DNA of 64,000 nucleotides, taken from Actinocorallia populi (GTDB lineage Bacteria > Actinomycetota > Actinomycetes > Streptosporangiales > Streptosporangiaceae). The notes under the pieces were generated by a model that was not told the origin of the DNA, did not search any database, and saw only the letters and a program-made list of their open reading frames with translations. The DNA lies in assembly GCF_002995495.1 (NCBI RefSeq), contig NZ_PVZV01000005.1, positions 310,001 to 374,000 on the forward strand, in the 5' to 3' direction. Shown in pieces: positions 4,699 through 12,786 of the stretch. Positions within the stretch are counted from its first letter, which is position 1. Each line of letters opens with the position of its first letter. The position numbers were made by a program, and so were the translations under genes.

Positions 4699-5514
4699 AT
4701 GACAGAACGAGGAGCAGTGATCATCACGGGCGGCAACCGGGGCATCGGCCTGGCCACCGCGGAACTGCTGGCCGCCCGCGGGGCGAGGGTGGTCCTGGTG
4801 GCGCGGCGCAGGGAGCAGGGCGAGGCCGCGGTCGCGCGGCTGGGCGCGAACGCCGAACTCGTGGTCGGCGACCTCGCCGACCGGGCGGGGACCGCCGCGC
4901 TGGCGGGCGAGCTCGGCGAACGTTTCCCCGACGTCCGCGCGCTGGTGCACAACGCCGGGATCTGGCCGTCCAGGCGGGTGCTCAACGCCGACGGGTTCGA
5001 GCAGGCCTTCTTCACCAACCATCTGGCGCCGTTCCTGCTCGACCACCTGCTGGAGGAGCGCCTCAAGGCGAGCGGCTCGACCGTCGTGAAGGTCAGCGCC
5101 GGCCTCTACGTCAAGGGCAGGGTCGATCCGGAGCGCACGCCGACCGGTGCGGACTTCCACGCCATCCGCACCTATGCCGACACCAAGCTGGCGAACGTCA
5201 TGATGCTCCCGCTGCTGGCCGAACGCTGGAAGGATGCCGGGGTGACCGTCAACGCACTGCACCCCGGCGTGATCCGCACCGGCCTGGGCGACCGGCGCGG
5301 CCCGGTCGGCCTGCTGCTCAAGGCCGTCAAGCGCACCTGGCAGCCGCCGGAGGAGGGCGGGCGCCCCGTCGCCCGCCTGGTGGCCGACCCTCCCGCGACG
5401 TCCGGCGCCTACTTCGACGTGGACAAGGAGGTCCCGCTGGCGCCGGTGGCGCTGGACACCGCGCTGGCCAAGAGGTTGTGGGCCGACGCGTCGGCCGCGC
5501 TCGACGTCTCCTGA
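4699..5514 (+). CDS. Short-chain dehydrogenase/reductase (retinol-dehydrogenase-like)
   Basis: A 271-residue SDR. The Rossmann signature TGGNRGIG is at residues 10-17, NAG follows beta-4, Ser is in VKVSAGLY and the catalytic Tyr/Lys pair in YADTK. Length and the TNHLAPFLL segment resemble the retinol dehydrogenase / WW-oxidoreductase-like branch, which uses NADP(H) to interconvert alcohols and ketones; the real substrate is unknown. The mRNA is probably leaderless. The stop codon overlaps the TetR start (TGATG), so the pair is translationally coupled and presumably autoregulated through the tandem palindromes upstream. Confidence 0.92.
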   Translation: MTERGAVIITGGNRGIGLATAELLAARGARVVLVARRREQGEAAVARLGANAELVVGDLADRAGTAALAGELGERFPDVRALVHNAGIWPSRRVLNADGFEQAFFTNHLAPFLLDHLLEERLKASGSTVVKVSAGLYVKGRVDPERTPTGADFHAIRTYADTKLANVMMLPLLAERWKDAGVTVNALHPGVIRTGLGDRRGPVGLLLKAVKRTWQPPEEGGRPVARLVADPPATSGAYFDVDKEVPLAPVALDTALAKRLWADASAALDVS

Positions 5515-6117: not shown

Positions 6118-6726
6118 TCACCGCGTGAAGGGCTTCTCCAGCTCGTCGAGCGCGGTGAGGAGGATGTCCCTCAGGGTGCCGTTCTGCTGTTTCTCCAGCC
6201 AGGCGATGTTGGCGACCCGCACCGCGCCGGTGTAGGCGGCGGCGAGCACCCGCGGCCGCATCCCGCCGTCCCCGTCGCGTTCGGTGATCGCCTGGGCCAG
6301 TTCGCGCTCCAGGGGGCCGAATCCCGCCATCTGGCGGGCGAGCAGGGAGGGGTGGCGCCGGGTCAGCTTGCCGCGCAGGACGGCCTCGCGGTCGGGTTCG
6401 CCCCTGCGTTCGGTCAGCTCCTCGGCGGCGCGGCGCAGCGCCTGCCAGCCGGTCTCCCCGCAGGGGCGGTCGCGCACCGCCGCGATGAGCTGGCGGAAGC
6501 GCGCCTCCTCGCCGTACATGACGGCGTCGGCCTTGTCGTTGAAGTAGTTGAAGAACGTGCGGCGGGAGATGTTCGCCACATCGGCGATGGCCTCGACGGT
6601 GACCTTGTCGAAGCCGTACTCGGCGACGAGGTCGAGCGCGGCCCTGTGGACGGCCAGCCGTGTCTCGGCCTTCTTGCGCTCCCGCAGTCCCGTGGCGGGT
6701 TCCCGCAGTCCCGAAGAGGTGGTCAT
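6118..6726 (-). CDS. TetR/AcrR regulator of the first MFS module (paralogue 1)
   Basis: A 202-residue TetR protein with HTH VTVEAIADVANISRRTFFNYFNDKADAV. It is a close paralogue of the regulator at 10161-10748; the two share LRERKKAETR, the whole HTH and RRHP..LARQ in the C-terminal domain. Start ATG 6726 has no Shine-Dalgarno sequence, but TAAGCT (minus strand, 6733-6738) lies 6 nt upstream, suggesting a leaderless mRNA. It is divergent from the MFS-sigma gene, and the gap contains a 22-bp element repeated in the second module. Expected role: drug- or metabolite-responsive repressor of the neighbouring exporter. Confidence 0.93.
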   Translation of the reverse strand: MTTSSGLREPATGLRERKKAETRLAVHRAALDLVAEYGFDKVTVEAIADVANISRRTFFNYFNDKADAVMYGEEARFRQLIAAVRDRPCGETGWQALRRAAEELTERRGEPDREAVLRGKLTRRHPSLLARQMAGFGPLERELAQAITERDGDGGMRPRVLAAAYTGAVRVANIAWLEKQQNGTLRDILLTALDELEKPFTR

Positions 6727-6786: not shown

Positions 6787-6828
6787 GGTAACCTCAATTC
6801 GTTAATCGGACAGAACGGGAGGAAACGG

Positions 6829-9063
6829 GTGACGGATACCGAGTCCGAGCCGATGAGCCACCGGCAGATCATGAAGGTGCTGAGCGGTCTGCTCACCGTC
6901 ATGGGCGTGGCGATGATGAGCAGCACGATCGTCTCGGTGGCGCTGCCGCAGATCATCGGCGCGCTCAAGGGCACCCAGTCGCAGTACACCTGGGTCGTCA
7001 CCGCGATGCTGCTGACCTCCACGGTCTCCACCCCGCTGTGGGGCAGGCTGGCCGACCTCTTCAGCAAGAAGCTGCTGCTGCAGGTGGGCATCGTCATCTT
7101 CCTGCTCGCCTCGCTGGGCGCCGGGTTCGCCCAGAACACCGGCCAGCTGATCTTCTTCCGGGCGGTGCAGGGCCTGGGCATGGGCGCGGTCCAGGTGCTG
7201 ATCCAGGTGGTCATCGCCGCGATGATCTCGCCGAAGGACCGCGGGAAGTACAACGGCTACCTCGGCGGCGTCATGGCCGTGGCCACCGTCGGCGGGCCGC
7301 TGATCGGCGGCTTCATCACCGACTCCGCGCTGGGCTGGCGCTGGTGCTTCTTCCTCCCGCTGCCCTTCATCGCGATCGCCTTCTTCCTGCTGCAGAAGAC
7401 CCTGCACCTCCCGGTGGTCCGCCGCGACGACGTCAAGATCGACTACCTGGGCGCGACGCTCATCGCGGCCGGGGTGAGCGTGCTGCTGGTCTGGATCACC
7501 TTCGTGGGCGGCAGTTTCGCCTGGCTGTCCTGGCAGACCGCCGCCATGGTCGGCGCGAGCGCGGTGCTGCTCGTCCTGTCGGTGTGGGTGGAGACCCGTG
7601 CCGCGCAGCCCGTCGTGCCCGTGCACATCGTGCGGCAGCGCACCCCCGCGCTCGCGATCATCGGCAGTGCCGCGGTCGGCATGGCGATGTTCGGCGGCGC
7701 GGTGTTCCTGGGCCAGTACTTCCAGATCGGCCGCGGCTACTCGCCCACCGAGGCGGGCCTGCTCACCATCCCGATGATGCTCGGCGTGCTGGTCTCCTCG
7801 ACGATCTCGGGGCGGATCATCTCCAACACCGGCAAGGTCAAGCCGCACATCATCATCGGCCTCGCGGTGCTCACCGCCGGTTTCCTCGCCATGTCGACCA
7901 TCGACCACGAGACCTCGCTGATCTTCGTGGGCGCGGCGATGGTGGCGATCGGCACCGGCGTCGGCATGTCGATGCAGAACCTCGTCCTGATCGTCCAGAA
8001 CGACGTGTCCATGCGGGACATGGGTGCGGCCAGCGGAGCGATGGCGTTCTTCCGCTCGCTGGGCGGCACCATCGGCGTCTCGGTGCTCGGCGCGATCCTC
8101 GCCACGAAGGTCGCGGAGTCCATCAAGAAGGGCTTCGCCGAGGCGGGCGTCCCGGTGACCGGCGACCAGGGCGGCAGCCTGGACATCGCCGCGATCCCCG
8201 AGCCGCTGCGGGAGATCGTCCGCGCGGCCTACGGCGACGGCACCGGCCACATCTTCCTGGTCTCCACCGGCATCGCCGTCGTCGGCCTGATCGCGGTGCT
8301 GTTCCTCAAGCCGAGGGACCTGCGCGACAGCCTCGACCTGCACGAGACCCCCGCCCCGGCGGCGGCGACCCCCGCCCCGGCGGCGCAGGCCCCCGTCCCG
8401 GCGGCGAGGCACGTCCCGGCGGCGGTGACGCCCGTCCCGGTGATGCAGACCCCCGCCCCGGCGCCGGCGGTGGAGACGCCTGCCGCGGCGGCGGAACCGA
8501 TCGTGACCGCGGGGGCGGACACGGCCGGGACCGCCGCCGCCGCGGACGGCCTGAGCGACGCGGAGGCGGTCGCGAGGTCGTTGCGCGAGCCCGAGGTGTT
8601 CGCGGTGCTCCTGGACCGGTACTACGCCCGGGTCCACGAGTTCGCCTCGTCCTGGCTGGCCGAGGACGCCGCGGCCTCGGTCGCCGCCGACACGTTCCTC
8701 ACCGCGTTCGACCGGCGGCACCGGTACGACCCGGAGGGGCCCGCCGGGGTCTGGCTGTTCGCCATCGCCGCCAAGAAGGTGCGGCGGCAGTGGCTCGAGG
8801 ACGGCAAGCGGCGCGACGGCCGCGACGGGTCCCCCCGGCCGGTCGGCCTGGAGGAGGAGCACGAGGCGAGGCTGACCGCCAGGCTGGCGGAGCTGTCCCC
8901 GGGGGCGCGGGACGTCCTGCTGCTCGTGGCCTGCGCGGACGTCGGCTACGCGGAGGTGGCGGCGGCGCTCGATCTGCCCGTCGCCGCGGTGGAGTCACGG
9001 CTGAAGAACGCCCGTGACAGGTTCAGGGAAGCACTCGAGCAGGAGGGGATCGACCATGGCTGA
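6829..9063 (+). CDS. MFS (DHA2) exporter fused to an ECF-type sigma factor
   Basis: A 744-residue fusion. Start GTG 6829 follows GGGAGGA at 6817-6823. Residues 1-504 are a 14-TM DHA2-family drug/H+ antiporter (TWVVTAMLLTSTVSTPLWGR, loop 2-3 motif GRLADLF). Residues 505-574 are a Pro/Ala-rich linker. Residues 575-744 form an ECF-type sigma factor: region 2 (FAVLLDRYYARVHEFASSW, AADTFLTAF, WLFAIAAKKVRRQW) and region 4 (LTARLAELSPGARDVLLLVA, YAEVAAALDLPVAAVESRLK). The paralogue at 10852 is the same exporter but stops after the PRDLRD segment. The reading frame is uninterrupted and base composition does not change at the junction. The stop overlaps the start of the CU044_5270-type gene by 8 bp, the arrangement in which free ECF factors of this type usually occur. 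The topology should leave the sigma domain cytoplasmic, as both MFS termini normally face inside. Confidence 0.9.
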   Translation: MTDTESEPMSHRQIMKVLSGLLTVMGVAMMSSTIVSVALPQIIGALKGTQSQYTWVVTAMLLTSTVSTPLWGRLADLFSKKLLLQVGIVIFLLASLGAGFAQNTGQLIFFRAVQGLGMGAVQVLIQVVIAAMISPKDRGKYNGYLGGVMAVATVGGPLIGGFITDSALGWRWCFFLPLPFIAIAFFLLQKTLHLPVVRRDDVKIDYLGATLIAAGVSVLLVWITFVGGSFAWLSWQTAAMVGASAVLLVLSVWVETRAAQPVVPVHIVRQRTPALAIIGSAAVGMAMFGGAVFLGQYFQIGRGYSPTEAGLLTIPMMLGVLVSSTISGRIISNTGKVKPHIIIGLAVLTAGFLAMSTIDHETSLIFVGAAMVAIGTGVGMSMQNLVLIVQNDVSMRDMGAASGAMAFFRSLGGTIGVSVLGAILATKVAESIKKGFAEAGVPVTGDQGGSLDIAAIPEPLREIVRAAYGDGTGHIFLVSTGIAVVGLIAVLFLKPRDLRDSLDLHETPAPAAATPAPAAQAPVPAARHVPAAVTPVPVMQTPAPAPAVETPAAAAEPIVTAGADTAGTAAAADGLSDAEAVARSLREPEVFAVLLDRYYARVHEFASSWLAEDAAASVAADTFLTAFDRRHRYDPEGPAGVWLFAIAAKKVRRQWLEDGKRRDGRDGSPRPVGLEEEHEARLTARLAELSPGARDVLLLVACADVGYAEVAAALDLPVAAVESRLKNARDRFREALEQEGIDHG

Positions 9064-10153
9064 GCCGTGGCCGGCGCGGAAAGAGGAGAACGGGCGGCCG
9101 CGCGCCCAGGCCGAGGCCAGGGCACGGCTCCTGGAGCACGCCGGGAAGGCCCGTGCGGGCCGGCGGCTCCGGCCGGGCCGGATCGCGGTCTGGGGGGCCG
9201 GCGTGGTGGCGGTGTGCGCGGCCGCGGCCCTCGTGCTCGTCCCGGCGGTCCGCGACGACGACGGCGGCGGCCCGGTCGCGAAGGCGCGGCGGACGGCGGA
9301 CGGGGTCCTGCTGGCCGCGGCGGACGCCGCGGACCGGCAGCCGCCGGAGAACGGCAGGTACCTGCACACCAGCTCGCGCGAGACCGAGCTGGTGAGCGCC
9401 GGCACCGAGCGCTCGTCCTTCCTGGTCGTCGAGGACCGGGTGACGGACCACTGGCAGGCGGCCCGTCCCGCGCGGGACGGGAGCCTGGTGTGGACGAGGC
9501 GGCTGGGCACCCGGCCGCTGAGCGCCGAGGACGAGCAGGCGTGGAAGGCCGCGGGCTCGCCCGCCCGGGTGGCCGGGCTGTCCTGGACCGGCAGGCCGAA
9601 GGTCGAGCTGCGGCAGGCAGGTGCGTGGAAGAGGAGCAGGGTCGAGGTCGGCAAGTCGGCGAGCCGGGCGAAGGTCGGCACCCTGGGCTCGGCGAAGGTG
9701 ACACTGGGCCGGTTGAACGCGCTGCCCGCCGATGCCGGGGAGCTGCGGGCGTCGCTGCTGGGGCGTTACCGGGGCGGCGAGGCGGGGACCGACCTGTGGC
9801 TGTTCGGCGCGGCCCGCGATCTCCTGGACGGGTCCCTCCCGGTCCGCCCGGAGGTGCGGGCGGCCGCCTACCGGATGATGGCGGGGCTGGGCGGCGTCGC
9901 GCTGCTGGGCCCAGCCCAGGACGGGCGGGGCCGCCCGGGGACGGCGATCGCGTTCGACGAACCCGGGAACGAACGCGGCCTCGTCCGCCACACCCTGATC
10001 GTCGACGAGGGGACGGGACGGCTGCTGGAGGCCAGGGAGATGATGCTGAACCCCTCCCGGGCCTATGCGAAGATCCCCGAGGGCACCGTCTACGACTCCG
10101 TGGTGTACGACCACGAGTGGACCGACGCGCGGCCGGCCGTCCCGAGGTCCTGA
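9056..10153 (+). CDS. CU044_5270-type single-pass membrane protein, putative sigma partner
   Basis: A 365-residue protein with a basic N-terminus, one membrane helix at about 41-62 (VWGAGVVAVCAAAALVLVPAV) and a large extracytoplasmic domain. Its layout and sequence (DGVLLAAADAADRQP..GRYLHTSS, a late YRMMAGLGGVALLG segment) match the CU044_5270 family, which in actinobacteria is regularly encoded directly after an ECF sigma factor. By that context it may act as an anti-sigma or signal-sensing partner, with residues 1-40 contacting the sigma domain. ATG 9056 has AGGAGGGG at 9041-9048 and overlaps the fusion gene stop by 8 bp, so the two are co-translated. The exact biochemical role is not established. 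Confidence 0.8.
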   Translation: MAEPWPARKEENGRPRAQAEARARLLEHAGKARAGRRLRPGRIAVWGAGVVAVCAAAALVLVPAVRDDDGGGPVAKARRTADGVLLAAADAADRQPPENGRYLHTSSRETELVSAGTERSSFLVVEDRVTDHWQAARPARDGSLVWTRRLGTRPLSAEDEQAWKAAGSPARVAGLSWTGRPKVELRQAGAWKRSRVEVGKSASRAKVGTLGSAKVTLGRLNALPADAGELRASLLGRYRGGEAGTDLWLFGAARDLLDGSLPVRPEVRAAAYRMMAGLGGVALLGPAQDGRGRPGTAIAFDEPGNERGLVRHTLIVDEGTGRLLEAREMMLNPSRAYAKIPEGTVYDSVVYDHEWTDARPAVPRS

Positions 10154-10160
10154 GCGGCGG

Positions 10161-10748
10161 TCAGCCGCCGAAGGCCGGGTCCAGCTCGTCGAGCGCCGCC
10201 ATGGTGGTTTCGGTGAGGCCGCGGCTCTGGTCCTCCTCCAGCCAGACGGCGGAGGCGATCCGGAGGGCGGCCAGGAAGGACCCGGCCAGGACGCGGGCGC
10301 GCAGGCCGCCGTCGCCGTCGCGCTCGGCGATGTCCTGGACCAGCTCGCGCTCGAGCGCGCCGGTCCCGGCCAGCTGGCGGGCGAGCAGGACGGGGTGGCG
10401 GCGGGCCAGCCGGACGCGCAGCACCCACTCGCGGTCGGGCTCGCCGTACTCCTCGATCAGCTCCTCGGCCGCCCGGCGCAGGGCCTGCCAGCCCCCCTCG
10501 TCGGCGGGCCGGGCCCGGAACTTCTCCAGCAGCCGGCGGTGGCGGTCCTCCTCGCCGTACATGACGGCGTCGGCCTTGTCGGCGAAGTAGTTGAAGAACG
10601 TCCGCCGGGAGATGTTCGCCACATCCGCGATGGCCTCGACGGTGACGTTGTCGAACCCGTGCTCGGCGATCAGATGCAGGGCGGCCCGGTACACGGCCTG
10701 GCGAGTCTCGGCTTTCTTGCGCTCGCGCAGCCCCGGCGTGGTGGTCAT
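10161..10748 (-). CDS. TetR/AcrR regulator of the second MFS module (paralogue 2)
   Basis: A 195-residue TetR protein, paralogous to the one at 6118-6726; its HTH (VTVEAIADVANISRRTFFNYFADKADAV) is almost identical, so DNA specificity is probably shared. ATG 10748 was chosen because MTTTPGLRERKKAETR aligns with the paralogue; TAGGAT at 10756-10761 (minus strand) lies 7 nt upstream and suits a leaderless start. It is divergent from the second MFS gene with the repeated 22-bp element between them. It ends 7 bp from the convergent CU044_5270-type gene. Confidence 0.93.
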   Translation of the reverse strand: MTTTPGLRERKKAETRQAVYRAALHLIAEHGFDNVTVEAIADVANISRRTFFNYFADKADAVMYGEEDRHRRLLEKFRARPADEGGWQALRRAAEELIEEYGEPDREWVLRVRLARRHPVLLARQLAGTGALERELVQDIAERDGDGGLRARVLAGSFLAALRIASAVWLEEDQSRGLTETTMAALDELDPAFGG

Positions 10749-10786
10749 ACGGAGCATCCTAAGCGGTGAGCAAATTAATGCCCACC

Positions 10787-10808
10787 GTGCAAAGTTTCCC
10801 TGAGTGCA
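10787..10808. promoter_or_regulatory. Conserved operator candidate, copy 2
   Basis: A second copy (20 of 22 identical) of the element at 6765-6786, again located between a divergent TetR gene and an MFS gene; core GTGCAAAGTTTC, end GAGTGCA. See the entry for copy 1. Confidence 0.6.
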
Positions 10809-10851
10809 GTTAGGCTTGTCCTGTCTACGTGCATATCGGGAGGAACATTCA

Positions 10852-12417
10852 GTGGCGGACACCGCATCCCCGGGGATGAGTCACAAAGAGATCATGAAAG
10901 CCCTGAGCGGGCTCCTGATCGTCATGGCCGTGACGATGATGAGCAGCACGATCGTCTCGGTGGCGCTGCCGCAGATCATCGGCGCGCTCAAGGGCACCCA
11001 GTCGCAGTACACCTGGGTCGTCACCGCGATGCTGCTGACCTCCACGGTCTCCACCCCGCTGTGGGGCAGGCTGGCCGACCTGTTCGACAAGAAGCTGCTG
11101 CTGCAGGTGGGCATCGTCATCTTCCTGCTCGCCTCGCTGGGCGCCGGGTTCTCCCAGAACACCGAGCAGCTCATCGCCTGGCGCGCGGTGCAGGGCCTGG
11201 GTCTGGGCGCCGCCCAGGTGCTGATCCAGGTGGTCATCGCCGCGATGATCTCGCCGAAGGACCGCGGGAAGTACAACGGCTACCTGGGCGCGGTCATGGG
11301 CCTGTCCACGGTCGCCGGACCGCTGCTGGGCGGCCTCATCACCGAGGTGATGGACTGGCGCTGGTGCTTCTTCCTGCCCGTCCCGTTCGCGGTGCTGGCC
11401 TTCTTCATGCTGCACAGGACCCTGCACCTGGAGCACGTCCGCCGCGACGACGTCAAGATCGACTACCTGGGCGCGACCCTCATCGCCGCCGGGGTGAGCG
11501 TGCTGCTGGTCTGGATCACCTTCGTGGGCGGCAGTTTCGCCTGGCTGTCCTGGCAGACCGCCGCCATGGTCGGCGCGAGCGCGGTGCTGCTCGTCCTGTC
11601 GGTGTGGGTGGAGACCCGTGCCGCGCAGCCCGTCGTGCCCGTGCACATCGTCAAGCAGCGCACTCCGGCGCTGGCCATCATCGGCAGTGCCGCGGTCGGC
11701 ATGGCGATGTTCGGCGGCGCGGTGTTCCTGGGCCAGTACTTCCAGATCGGCCGCGGCTACTCGCCGACGGTGGCGGGCCTGCTCACCATCCCGATGATGC
11801 TCGGCATGATGGTCTCCTCGACGATCTCCGGCCAGATCATCTCCCGGACCGGCAAGGTCAAGCCGCACGTCGTCATCGCGCTGATCTCCCTCACCCTGGG
11901 CTTCGCGCTCATGTCGACCATCGACCACGAGACCTCCCTGGTGTTCATCGGCGGGGCCATGGTGCTGGTCGGGGTCGGCGTCGGCATGTCGATGCAGAAC
12001 CTCGTCCTGGTCGTCCAGAACGGCGTCTCGATGCGGGACATGGGCGCGGCCAGCGGCGCGCTGGCGTTCTTCCGCTCGCTGGGCGGCACCATCGGCGTCT
12101 CGGTGCTCGGCGCGATCCTCGCCTCGAAGGTCGCGGAGTCCATCAAGAAGGGCTTCACCGAGATCGGTGTACCGGTGACCGGCGACCAGGGCGGCACCCT
12201 GGACCTGGAGGCGATCCCCGAGCCGCTGCGGGAGATCGTGCGCGCGGCCTACGGCGACGGCACCGGCCACATCTTCCTGGTCTCCACCGGCATCGCCGTC
12301 GTGGGCCTGATCGCGGTGCTGTTCCTCAAGCCGAGGGACCTGCGCGACACCATCGACCTGCCGCCGGCGCCCGCGCCCGAGCGGAAGGAAGAGGAGAAGG
12401 AGTTCGCCGCCCGCTGA
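10852..12417 (+). CDS. MFS transporter, DHA2 family (no sigma extension)
   Basis: A 521-residue 14-TM drug/H+ antiporter. GTG 10852 follows GGGAGGA at 10838-10844. Over the first 500 residues it is very close to the exporter part of the upstream fusion, including long identical stretches in TM helices 2-4 and 7-10, so the two modules arose by duplication. It diverges at the C-terminus: after PRDLRD it has only a short charged tail (PERKEEEKEFAAR). Controlled presumably by the divergent TetR at 10161-10748. Substrate unknown; family members export lipophilic drugs or secondary metabolites. A stem-loop follows at 12434-12468. Confidence 0.93.
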   Translation: MADTASPGMSHKEIMKALSGLLIVMAVTMMSSTIVSVALPQIIGALKGTQSQYTWVVTAMLLTSTVSTPLWGRLADLFDKKLLLQVGIVIFLLASLGAGFSQNTEQLIAWRAVQGLGLGAAQVLIQVVIAAMISPKDRGKYNGYLGAVMGLSTVAGPLLGGLITEVMDWRWCFFLPVPFAVLAFFMLHRTLHLEHVRRDDVKIDYLGATLIAAGVSVLLVWITFVGGSFAWLSWQTAAMVGASAVLLVLSVWVETRAAQPVVPVHIVKQRTPALAIIGSAAVGMAMFGGAVFLGQYFQIGRGYSPTVAGLLTIPMMLGMMVSSTISGQIISRTGKVKPHVVIALISLTLGFALMSTIDHETSLVFIGGAMVLVGVGVGMSMQNLVLVVQNGVSMRDMGAASGALAFFRSLGGTIGVSVLGAILASKVAESIKKGFTEIGVPVTGDQGGTLDLEAIPEPLREIVRAAYGDGTGHIFLVSTGIAVVGLIAVLFLKPRDLRDTIDLPPAPAPERKEEEKEFAAR

Positions 12418-12433
12418 GGCCGGGGCCCGAACG

Positions 12434-12468
12434 GTCCCGGAACCAGATCGTGATCCAGATTCCGGGAC
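12434..12468 (+). terminator. Stem-loop after the second MFS gene
   Basis: GTCCCGGAA (12434-12442) pairs perfectly with TTCCGGGAC (12460-12468) across a 17-nt loop, 17 nt after the stop codon. There is no T-run, as is common for actinobacterial terminators. Confidence 0.5.
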
Positions 12469-12531
12469 AAGAGCTCTGAAACGTCGCACTGTGGGTATAT
12501 CTCGTTCCACCGGGATATGGGCAGGTGAGAC

Positions 12532-12675
12532 ATGATGACCCCGAACCGGCAACGAAAAATCCTGGCGGACATGGCCGAGCGCCTGCGCGAGGAGGACCCC
12601 CAGCTCGTCGGACGCTTCACGATCTTCGCTCGGCTCGCCGAGGAGGACGGGCCCGTGCCGCCCGAACCCGCCTGA
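12532..12675 (+). CDS. Small DUF3040-like protein
   Basis: A 47-residue protein, MMTPNRQRKILADMAERLRE... ending VPPEPA. The N-terminal pattern (R-x-x-L/ILADMAERLREEDPQLVGRF) resembles the cytoplasmic helix of actinobacterial DUF3040 proteins, but the usual two membrane helices are missing, so it is either a truncated member or a stand-alone helix. ATG 12532 (or 12535) follows AGGTGAG. It lies alone between two stem-loops. No function is known. Confidence 0.55.
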   Translation: MMTPNRQRKILADMAERLREEDPQLVGRFTIFARLAEEDGPVPPEPA

Positions 12676-12693
12676 CCGCCCCCACCCCGTCCC

Positions 12694-12711
12694 GCGGCCG
12701 GTTATGGCCGC
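12694..12711 (+). terminator. Short GC hairpin after the DUF3040-like gene
   Basis: GCGGCC (12694-12699) and GGCCGC (12706-12711) flank a 6-nt loop, 18 nt downstream of the small gene's stop. It could terminate that transcript before the permease gene promoter. Confidence 0.4.
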
Positions 12712-12786
12712 TTCTCAGAAGTGGATCTTCTTGCGGTTCCTCCGTGACAGGTATGGAATCGCATGATTCGTTGATCTTCGGATGGG

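Follow-up and report, generated by a model that had tools for sequence, protein, structure and literature searches.

A sigma factor-like domain fused to a DHA2-type exporter in Actinocorallia populi

We analysed a 64,000-nt stretch of the genome of Actinocorallia populi (assembly GCF_002995495.1, contig NZ_PVZV01000005.1, positions 310,001 to 374,000; hereafter the window), an actinomycete that belongs, like Nonomuraea and Planotetraspora, to the Streptosporangiaceae. The genome measures 8.25 Mb, and the window is an interior part of a contig of 720 kb. One of its genes encodes a DHA2-type exporter of the major facilitator superfamily (MFS) that continues, through a 70-residue Ala/Pro linker, into regions 2 and 4 of an extracytoplasmic function (ECF) sigma factor, and the end of this fusion gene overlaps the start of a gene for a membrane protein of the CU044_5270 family. 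The parts of the fusion gene and its partner are as follows:

6829..8340, plus strand: DHA2-type MFS exporter part, residues 1-504; GTG start with a strong Shine-Dalgarno (SD) sequence, MFS_1 match at 1.1e-45
8341..8550, plus strand: Ala/Pro-rich linker, residues 505-574; 26 Ala and 14 Pro among 70 residues, GC content at third codon positions (GC3) 0.97
8551..9063, plus strand: ECF sigma-like part with regions 2 and 4, residues 575-744 and stop codon; from Pfam and AlphaFold
9056..10153, plus strand: CU044_5270-family single-pass membrane protein, 365 residues; overlaps the fusion gene by 8 bp

The fused reading frame

The frame that starts at 6829 on the plus strand meets its first stop codon at 9061-9063, after 744 residues. 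Openness by itself says little in DNA of ~72% GC, and the same stretch is also open in frames of 659 (plus strand) and 686 (minus strand) codons; the mechanical open reading frame (ORF) of the fusion itself extends upstream to 6352, giving 903 codons. Codon-position composition is a better test of coding than openness. GC at codon positions 1, 2 and 3 is 0.62, 0.45 and 0.98 in the exporter part, 0.84, 0.74 and 0.97 in the linker and 0.78, 0.49 and 0.96 in the sigma part, compared with 0.64, 0.57 and 0.70 in the presumed intergenic stretch 12418-12786, and the codon periodicity runs continuously through 8251-8700. The first-pass annotation of this DNA, made from the sequence alone, had described an uninterrupted 744-codon frame with domain boundaries at residues 1-504, 505-574 and 575-744, an 8-bp overlap with a CU044_5270-type gene, and a frameshift at 8.34-8.55 kb as a possible flaw. 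The frame holds, with GC3 of 0.96-0.98 across the junction, the boundaries agree with the Pfam domain limits, the overlap lies at 9056-9063, and the unbroken periodicity gives no sign of a frameshift.

The starts of both exporters of the locus (6829 and 10852) and of the partner gene (9056) pair with the anti-SD sequence at -10.3 to -10.8 kcal/mol; for the GTG at 6829 the value is -10.3 kcal/mol, with the SD sequence at 6817-6824, and the strengths at 6829 and 9056 are equalled by none of 126 background codons. The five in-frame ATG or GTG codons of the linker pair at -1.7 to -6.3 kcal/mol and give a start there no support, although a weak site need not prevent initiation, because two presumed gene starts nearby are likewise weak (4699, -1.7 kcal/mol; 12787, -3.3 kcal/mol). 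No terminator-like site was found between the exporter and sigma parts, and no sigma-70-type promoter-like site between 6600 and 10900, where the chance mean is 0.1.

The exporter part matches Pfam MFS_1 at residues 22-416 with 156.6 bits against a cut-off of 33.4. Its best NCBIfam matches are the OtrB, Tcr3 and EmrB-type efflux models, each below its own cut-off (191.1 against 230.2 bits for the EmrB subfamily TIGR00711). Hydrophobic, transmembrane-like segments span residues 14-496 in a hydropathy scan with merged segments. DHA2-type exporters presumably have 14 transmembrane helices with both ends in the cytoplasm, which would place the C-terminus of the exporter part on the cytoplasmic side. 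The protein shares with exporters of this type (TIGR00711 EmrB, OtrB/Tcr3) the exporter body and, at this locus, a divergent TetR gene; it differs by a C-terminal addition of 240 residues that includes the sigma domain. The linker within this addition is a degenerate 21-bp tandem repeat of 6 copies at 8346-8469.

The sigma-like part and its free relatives

Pfam Sigma70_r4_2 is matched at residues 681-730 (4e-9; 38.6 bits for the domain alone, cut-off 25.7), and the NCBIfam model TIGR02937 (sigma70-ECF) gives 45.3 bits on the domain alone, above its cut-off of 42.9. Sigma70_r2, at residues 594-655, stays under the Pfam cut-off of 24 with 17.9 bits in the whole protein and 21.3 bits in the domain alone, compared with 40.1-56.4 bits in six free relatives. 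Of the original description as an ECF-type sigma factor with regions 2 and 4, the fold and region 4 are supported and region 2 falls short of the Pfam cut-off. Neither an anti-sigma domain nor a receiver domain is matched by Pfam in the 744-residue chain. Folded alone by AlphaFold, the sigma domain is predicted to adopt a sigma2-sigma4 fold (pLDDT 87.7, pTM 0.71), and the model has 22 matches in the PDB at E ≤0.001, all of them ECF sigma entries, including CnrH, SigW and sigma-E. The best match is CnrH (E 6.2e-06, TMq 0.62); chains of PhyR appear among the weaker ones (E 0.02-0.06). Regions 2 and 4 are spaced ~12 residues more closely in the fused sigma than in free relatives.

We aligned the fused domain with 42 free relatives, the number left after removal of two duplicates from 44 extracted. 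Eight of the 23 columns that are invariant across these relatives are changed in it: R609W, D617S, G645A, R656L, E658D, G719A, T720A and R727N, of which D617 occupies what we take to be the core-binding aspartate of sigma-70 region 2.2. In a leave-one-out test, 35 of 43 rows break none of the invariant columns, and the free relative that fares worst breaks 2 of 25. At columns conserved to at least 85% the fused sigma differs at 17 of 61, and the worst free row at 13 of 63. In the sigma tree its end branch measures 1.69, where the median is 0.16 and the second-longest 0.81; at such a length its position in the tree is not trustworthy.

In searches with the sigma part, no other fusion was seen among the matches listed. 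Of 341 genomes of the family, seven others reached E 1e-30, at 46-50% identity and in frames of 201-295 codons; at 1e-22, matches were found in 198 of 345 genomes of the order, nearly all from the same family, and at 1e-16 in 54 of 394 genomes drawn from the class. Apart from the window's own, no frame among the matches listed from these 394 genomes is longer than 543 codons, and none could hold an exporter. The five longest frames among the sigma matches listed from the order (G227, 848 codons; G025, 651; G278, 539; G263, 514; G176, 477) were rejected as fusions; judged by eye, their upstream parts are out-of-frame sequence with no exporter. None of 2295 matching plasmid records covers 80% of the fusion, and a sigma-part scan of contigs from 84,980 species, which finds close relatives only, gave two distant free sigmas. 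The locus of Nonomuraea sp. SYSU D8015 from that scan has the same sigma as G178 of the family. All fusion searches were aimed at this sigma and this exporter and not at fusions with other ECF groups. As the first-pass annotation had supposed, no MFS-sigma fusion was found described in the openly licensed PubMed Central (PMC) literature, which may not include the major ECF classification papers; the term MFS has no match in two ECF reviews.

Distribution of the fusion and of its partner gene

The following genes complete the locus on either side of the fusion gene and its partner:

6118..6726, minus strand: divergent TetR/MftR-type gene that probably regulates the fused gene (Pfam TetR_N, TetR_C_14)
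10161..10862, minus strand: TetR-type gene that probably regulates the paralogue; its true start is uncertain (TetR_N 7.1e-12)
10852..12417, plus strand: tandem paralogue exporter lacking the sigma part, 521 residues; 86% identity over 511 residues

Upstream of the fused gene the order is MarR and SDR (both named by eye), TetR and divergent TetR; downstream, the second divergent TetR gene precedes the paralogue exporter.

Relatives of the exporter were sought with a 108-residue piece of its C-terminal half, with at most 14 candidates scored per genome; of 338 family genomes searched, 125 contained a match. We read 77 loci at 50% identity or more, amounting to 74 distinct genes including that of the window; they cover all listed matches with a stop-to-stop frame of more than 600 codons and part of the shorter ones. 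A sigma domain occurs in one of the 74 genes, the window's own. C-terminal extensions of more than 100 residues are present in three, namely the sigma-bearing addition of 240 residues described here and additions of 332 and 345 residues in two sister species (G001 and G002), and the remaining 71 exporters end 2-80 residues past the exporter body. In G001 and G002 the extension belongs to a second exporter copy and combines a linker with another hydrophobic stretch and with pentapeptide repeats (Pentapeptide in Pfam, at 1e-20 and 1.2e-26); these copies have 836 residues in G001 (L015:1501-4008) and about 845-855 in G002 (L016). The exporter subfamily seems prone to C-terminal domain gain in this genus.

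The syntenic site was identified in both sister species, as MarR-SDR-TetR-TetR-MFS in G001 and as the same order from SDR on in G002, and the TetR relative divergent to the MFS gene is present in each. The exporters there are plain, with tails of 38 and 14 residues, and neither a sigma nor a CU044 match was found within the 12-14 kb examined around them. Given this and the single occurrence among 74 genes, conservation of the fusion across related genomes, which the first-pass annotation had proposed to check, is not supported. In a tree of 43 of the 73 exporters extracted, the fused copy and its tandem paralogue are sisters (support 100/99); next to them stand two pairs, one of the plain and one of the pentapeptide copies from the sister species. 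The fused copy has changed less than the paralogue after the two diverged (branches 0.039 and 0.23). The tree and the plain syntenic copies point to capture of the sigma part in this lineage, beside the less changed exporter copy, and the paralogue does provide the before-and-after comparison that had been proposed for it.

The two exporter copies of the window, compared over 6911-8329 and 10934-12349, are a patchwork of diverged and identical stretches, the latter up to 164 bp long, which looks like gene conversion.

The partner protein scores 134.2 bits against NF038083 (CU044_5270), above the cut-off of 100. The initial statement that such genes usually follow free ECF sigma genes is supported by 32 of the 38 free relatives scanned (4 of 42 left out), and the 8-bp overlap of sigma and partner genes recurs in 21 of 42. 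The fused pair therefore resembles the free ECF and CU044_5270 pairs in gene order, in overlap and in sigma sequence (best matches ~45-50% identical); it differs in that the free sigmas are separate proteins, whereas here the sigma is fused at its N-terminus and eight invariants are changed. In 2 of 39 following genes, LytR-CpsA-Psr (LCP) cell-wall transferase models match instead of CU044_5270 (by eye, rows L004 and L139).

The N-terminal MDELxxLR segment of the family is only partly kept in the window's partner. Its outer domain is predicted, weakly, to resemble the sigma-E regulators RseB and MucB and the lipid carriers LprG and LppX, the LprG-type structural match being middling; should this hold, it would apply to the CU044_5270 family more widely. 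LprG and Rv1410 likewise pair an outer protein with an MFS transporter, with the difference that LprG is a lipoprotein and the partner here is a single-pass protein of a family usually found after sigma genes. The name CU044_5270 was not found in the openly licensed PMC literature.

Two sister-species pairs, L150 and L151, were considered as the source of the fused sigma and rejected, their best match in the window genome being another locus, L005, at 65-67% identity; the sigma relatives of the sister species are 33-38% identical to the fused sigma by BLAST and up to 42% by another pairwise scoring. In conflict with this result, the window's partner protein groups with L150/L151 (support 96/87) in the partner tree, from which we removed six of 39 rows (L002, L004, L049, L126, L139, L147), apparently other proteins or partial matches.

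Possible origin and roles of the tethered domain

By a narrow balance we favour a fusion specific to this lineage: the exporter would function as usual, and the tethered sigma domain, no longer a conventional promoter-recognising factor, would be decaying or changing its role. We infer the following order of events: (i) the TetR-exporter unit would have been duplicated in tandem in this species, (ii) a sigma/CU044_5270 pair would have come to lie between the exporter copies, and (iii) the first exporter gene would have lost its stop codon and the sigma gene its ribosome-binding site, with the repeat-expanded Ala/Pro linker now connecting the two. The exporter half would still export, its C-terminus in the cytoplasm and its expression under the TetR repressor, and the sigma half would be made mainly as a membrane-tethered domain on a flexible linker. 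This domain appears to have kept the sigma fold but to have lost residues conserved in the 42 free relatives, and because of the lost invariants it most likely does not carry out conventional promoter recognition. If the sigma half has no function, the locus offers a clean natural case in which a neighbouring membrane gene has captured a sigma factor, with the plain sister copy adjacent, and shows how ECF sigmas with membrane extensions could arise.

Several points weigh against this reading. The clade of the fused sigma has no other sampled member, and no relative exceeds ~50% identity, which alone may account for the long branch and for some of the broken invariants; because no close sigma relative is sampled, the sigma branch is also not comparable in rate with the exporter branch. 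The sigma domain retains an intact frame and a high GC3, it agrees at 44 of the 61 conserved columns, its fold is predicted with confidence, and the partner-gene overlap and the partner's SD sequence are intact. A plain pseudogene need not keep such features, yet in GC-rich DNA openness and GC3 are slow to decay. Some changes in region 4.2 are tolerated elsewhere, as the 'AVE' of the recognition helix is also present in CnrH, a working ECF sigma.

The same combination, a fold that is kept (with PhyR chains among the weaker structural matches) and free-relative invariants that are lost, would also suit a sigma mimic, in which the tethered domain has exchanged promoters for a protein target, either the CU044_5270 protein (by its cytoplasmic segment) or another anti-sigma factor, and the amount or state of the exporter tunes a different free sigma. 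Sigma mimicry is established for PhyR with NepR, according to the part of PMC8999054 that treats it, and retention of the partner gene with its overlap and SD sequence fits such a role. The likeness to PhyR-NepR-EcfG lies in a sigma-like fold within a larger protein; PhyR, however, is a response regulator of Alphaproteobacteria, and the fusion has no matched receiver domain. An anti-sigma role of CU044_5270 proteins is not established, and the partner's MDELxxLR segment is incomplete, so that we regard mimicry as unlikely. We consider improbable its more specific form, in which the mimic has shed its promoter and RNA polymerase contacts and titrates the CU044_5270 protein, itself made up of a cytoplasmic tail and an RseB/LprG-like outer sensor; the activity of another free ECF sigma would then follow the abundance or occupancy of the exporter, in the manner of an anti-anti-sigma device.

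The first-pass annotation had proposed a functioning switch in one protein: an active sigma whose release or positioning depends on transport or on substrate occupancy. Any function of the sigma half would mean that a transporter and transcription are linked within one chain, where separate proteins are otherwise needed. The single polypeptide with its flexible linker and the habit of the partner family of following ECF genes are compatible with this idea, and ECF sigmas with membrane extensions are known: the relevant part of PMC8999054 lists ECF36 (three to four N-terminal transmembrane segments and DUF2275), ECF48, ECF52, ECF53 and IutY. In these, as here, a sigma domain is covalently tied to membrane segments, although their extensions are described as anti-sigma-like and the present one is a complete transporter. 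The idea is not borne out by the relatives examined, in which the fusion was not found, nor by the broken invariants, and Sigma70_r2 remains under its cut-off; no finding of this analysis supports transport-controlled transcription, and we hold a switch of this kind to be distinctly unlikely.

IutY also supplies, in the portion of PMC8999054 concerned with it, a precedent for proteolytic release of a membrane-fused ECF sigma. Proteolysis of the linker, or an internal start best placed at GTG 8503, might likewise set the sigma part free here, and export and sigma would then be merely co-expressed. GTG 8503 lies about where free relatives begin, as judged by eye, and the presumed starts at 4699 and 12787 have no better SD pairing than the linker codons. 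Pairing at 8503 is nevertheless -5.0 kcal/mol, a value matched by 26% of the 126 background ATG or GTG codons, against -10.3 to -10.8 kcal/mol at the strong starts, which leaves release with little probability. An assembly or sequencing artefact, whether a missed frameshift or a false joining of the near-identical exporter copies, is very improbable: the exact stretches of up to 164 bp and the GC-rich repeat of the linker are both hard for short reads, but the last exact match of at least 40 bp between the copies ends at 8329, none covers linker or sigma, the codon periodicity is unbroken and the window is interior to its contig.

Elsewhere in the window, a mechanical ORF of 909 codons at 22377-25106 matches an MFS_2 sugar-type transporter only in residues 476-893, and the true start of this gene is probably near 23.8 kb.

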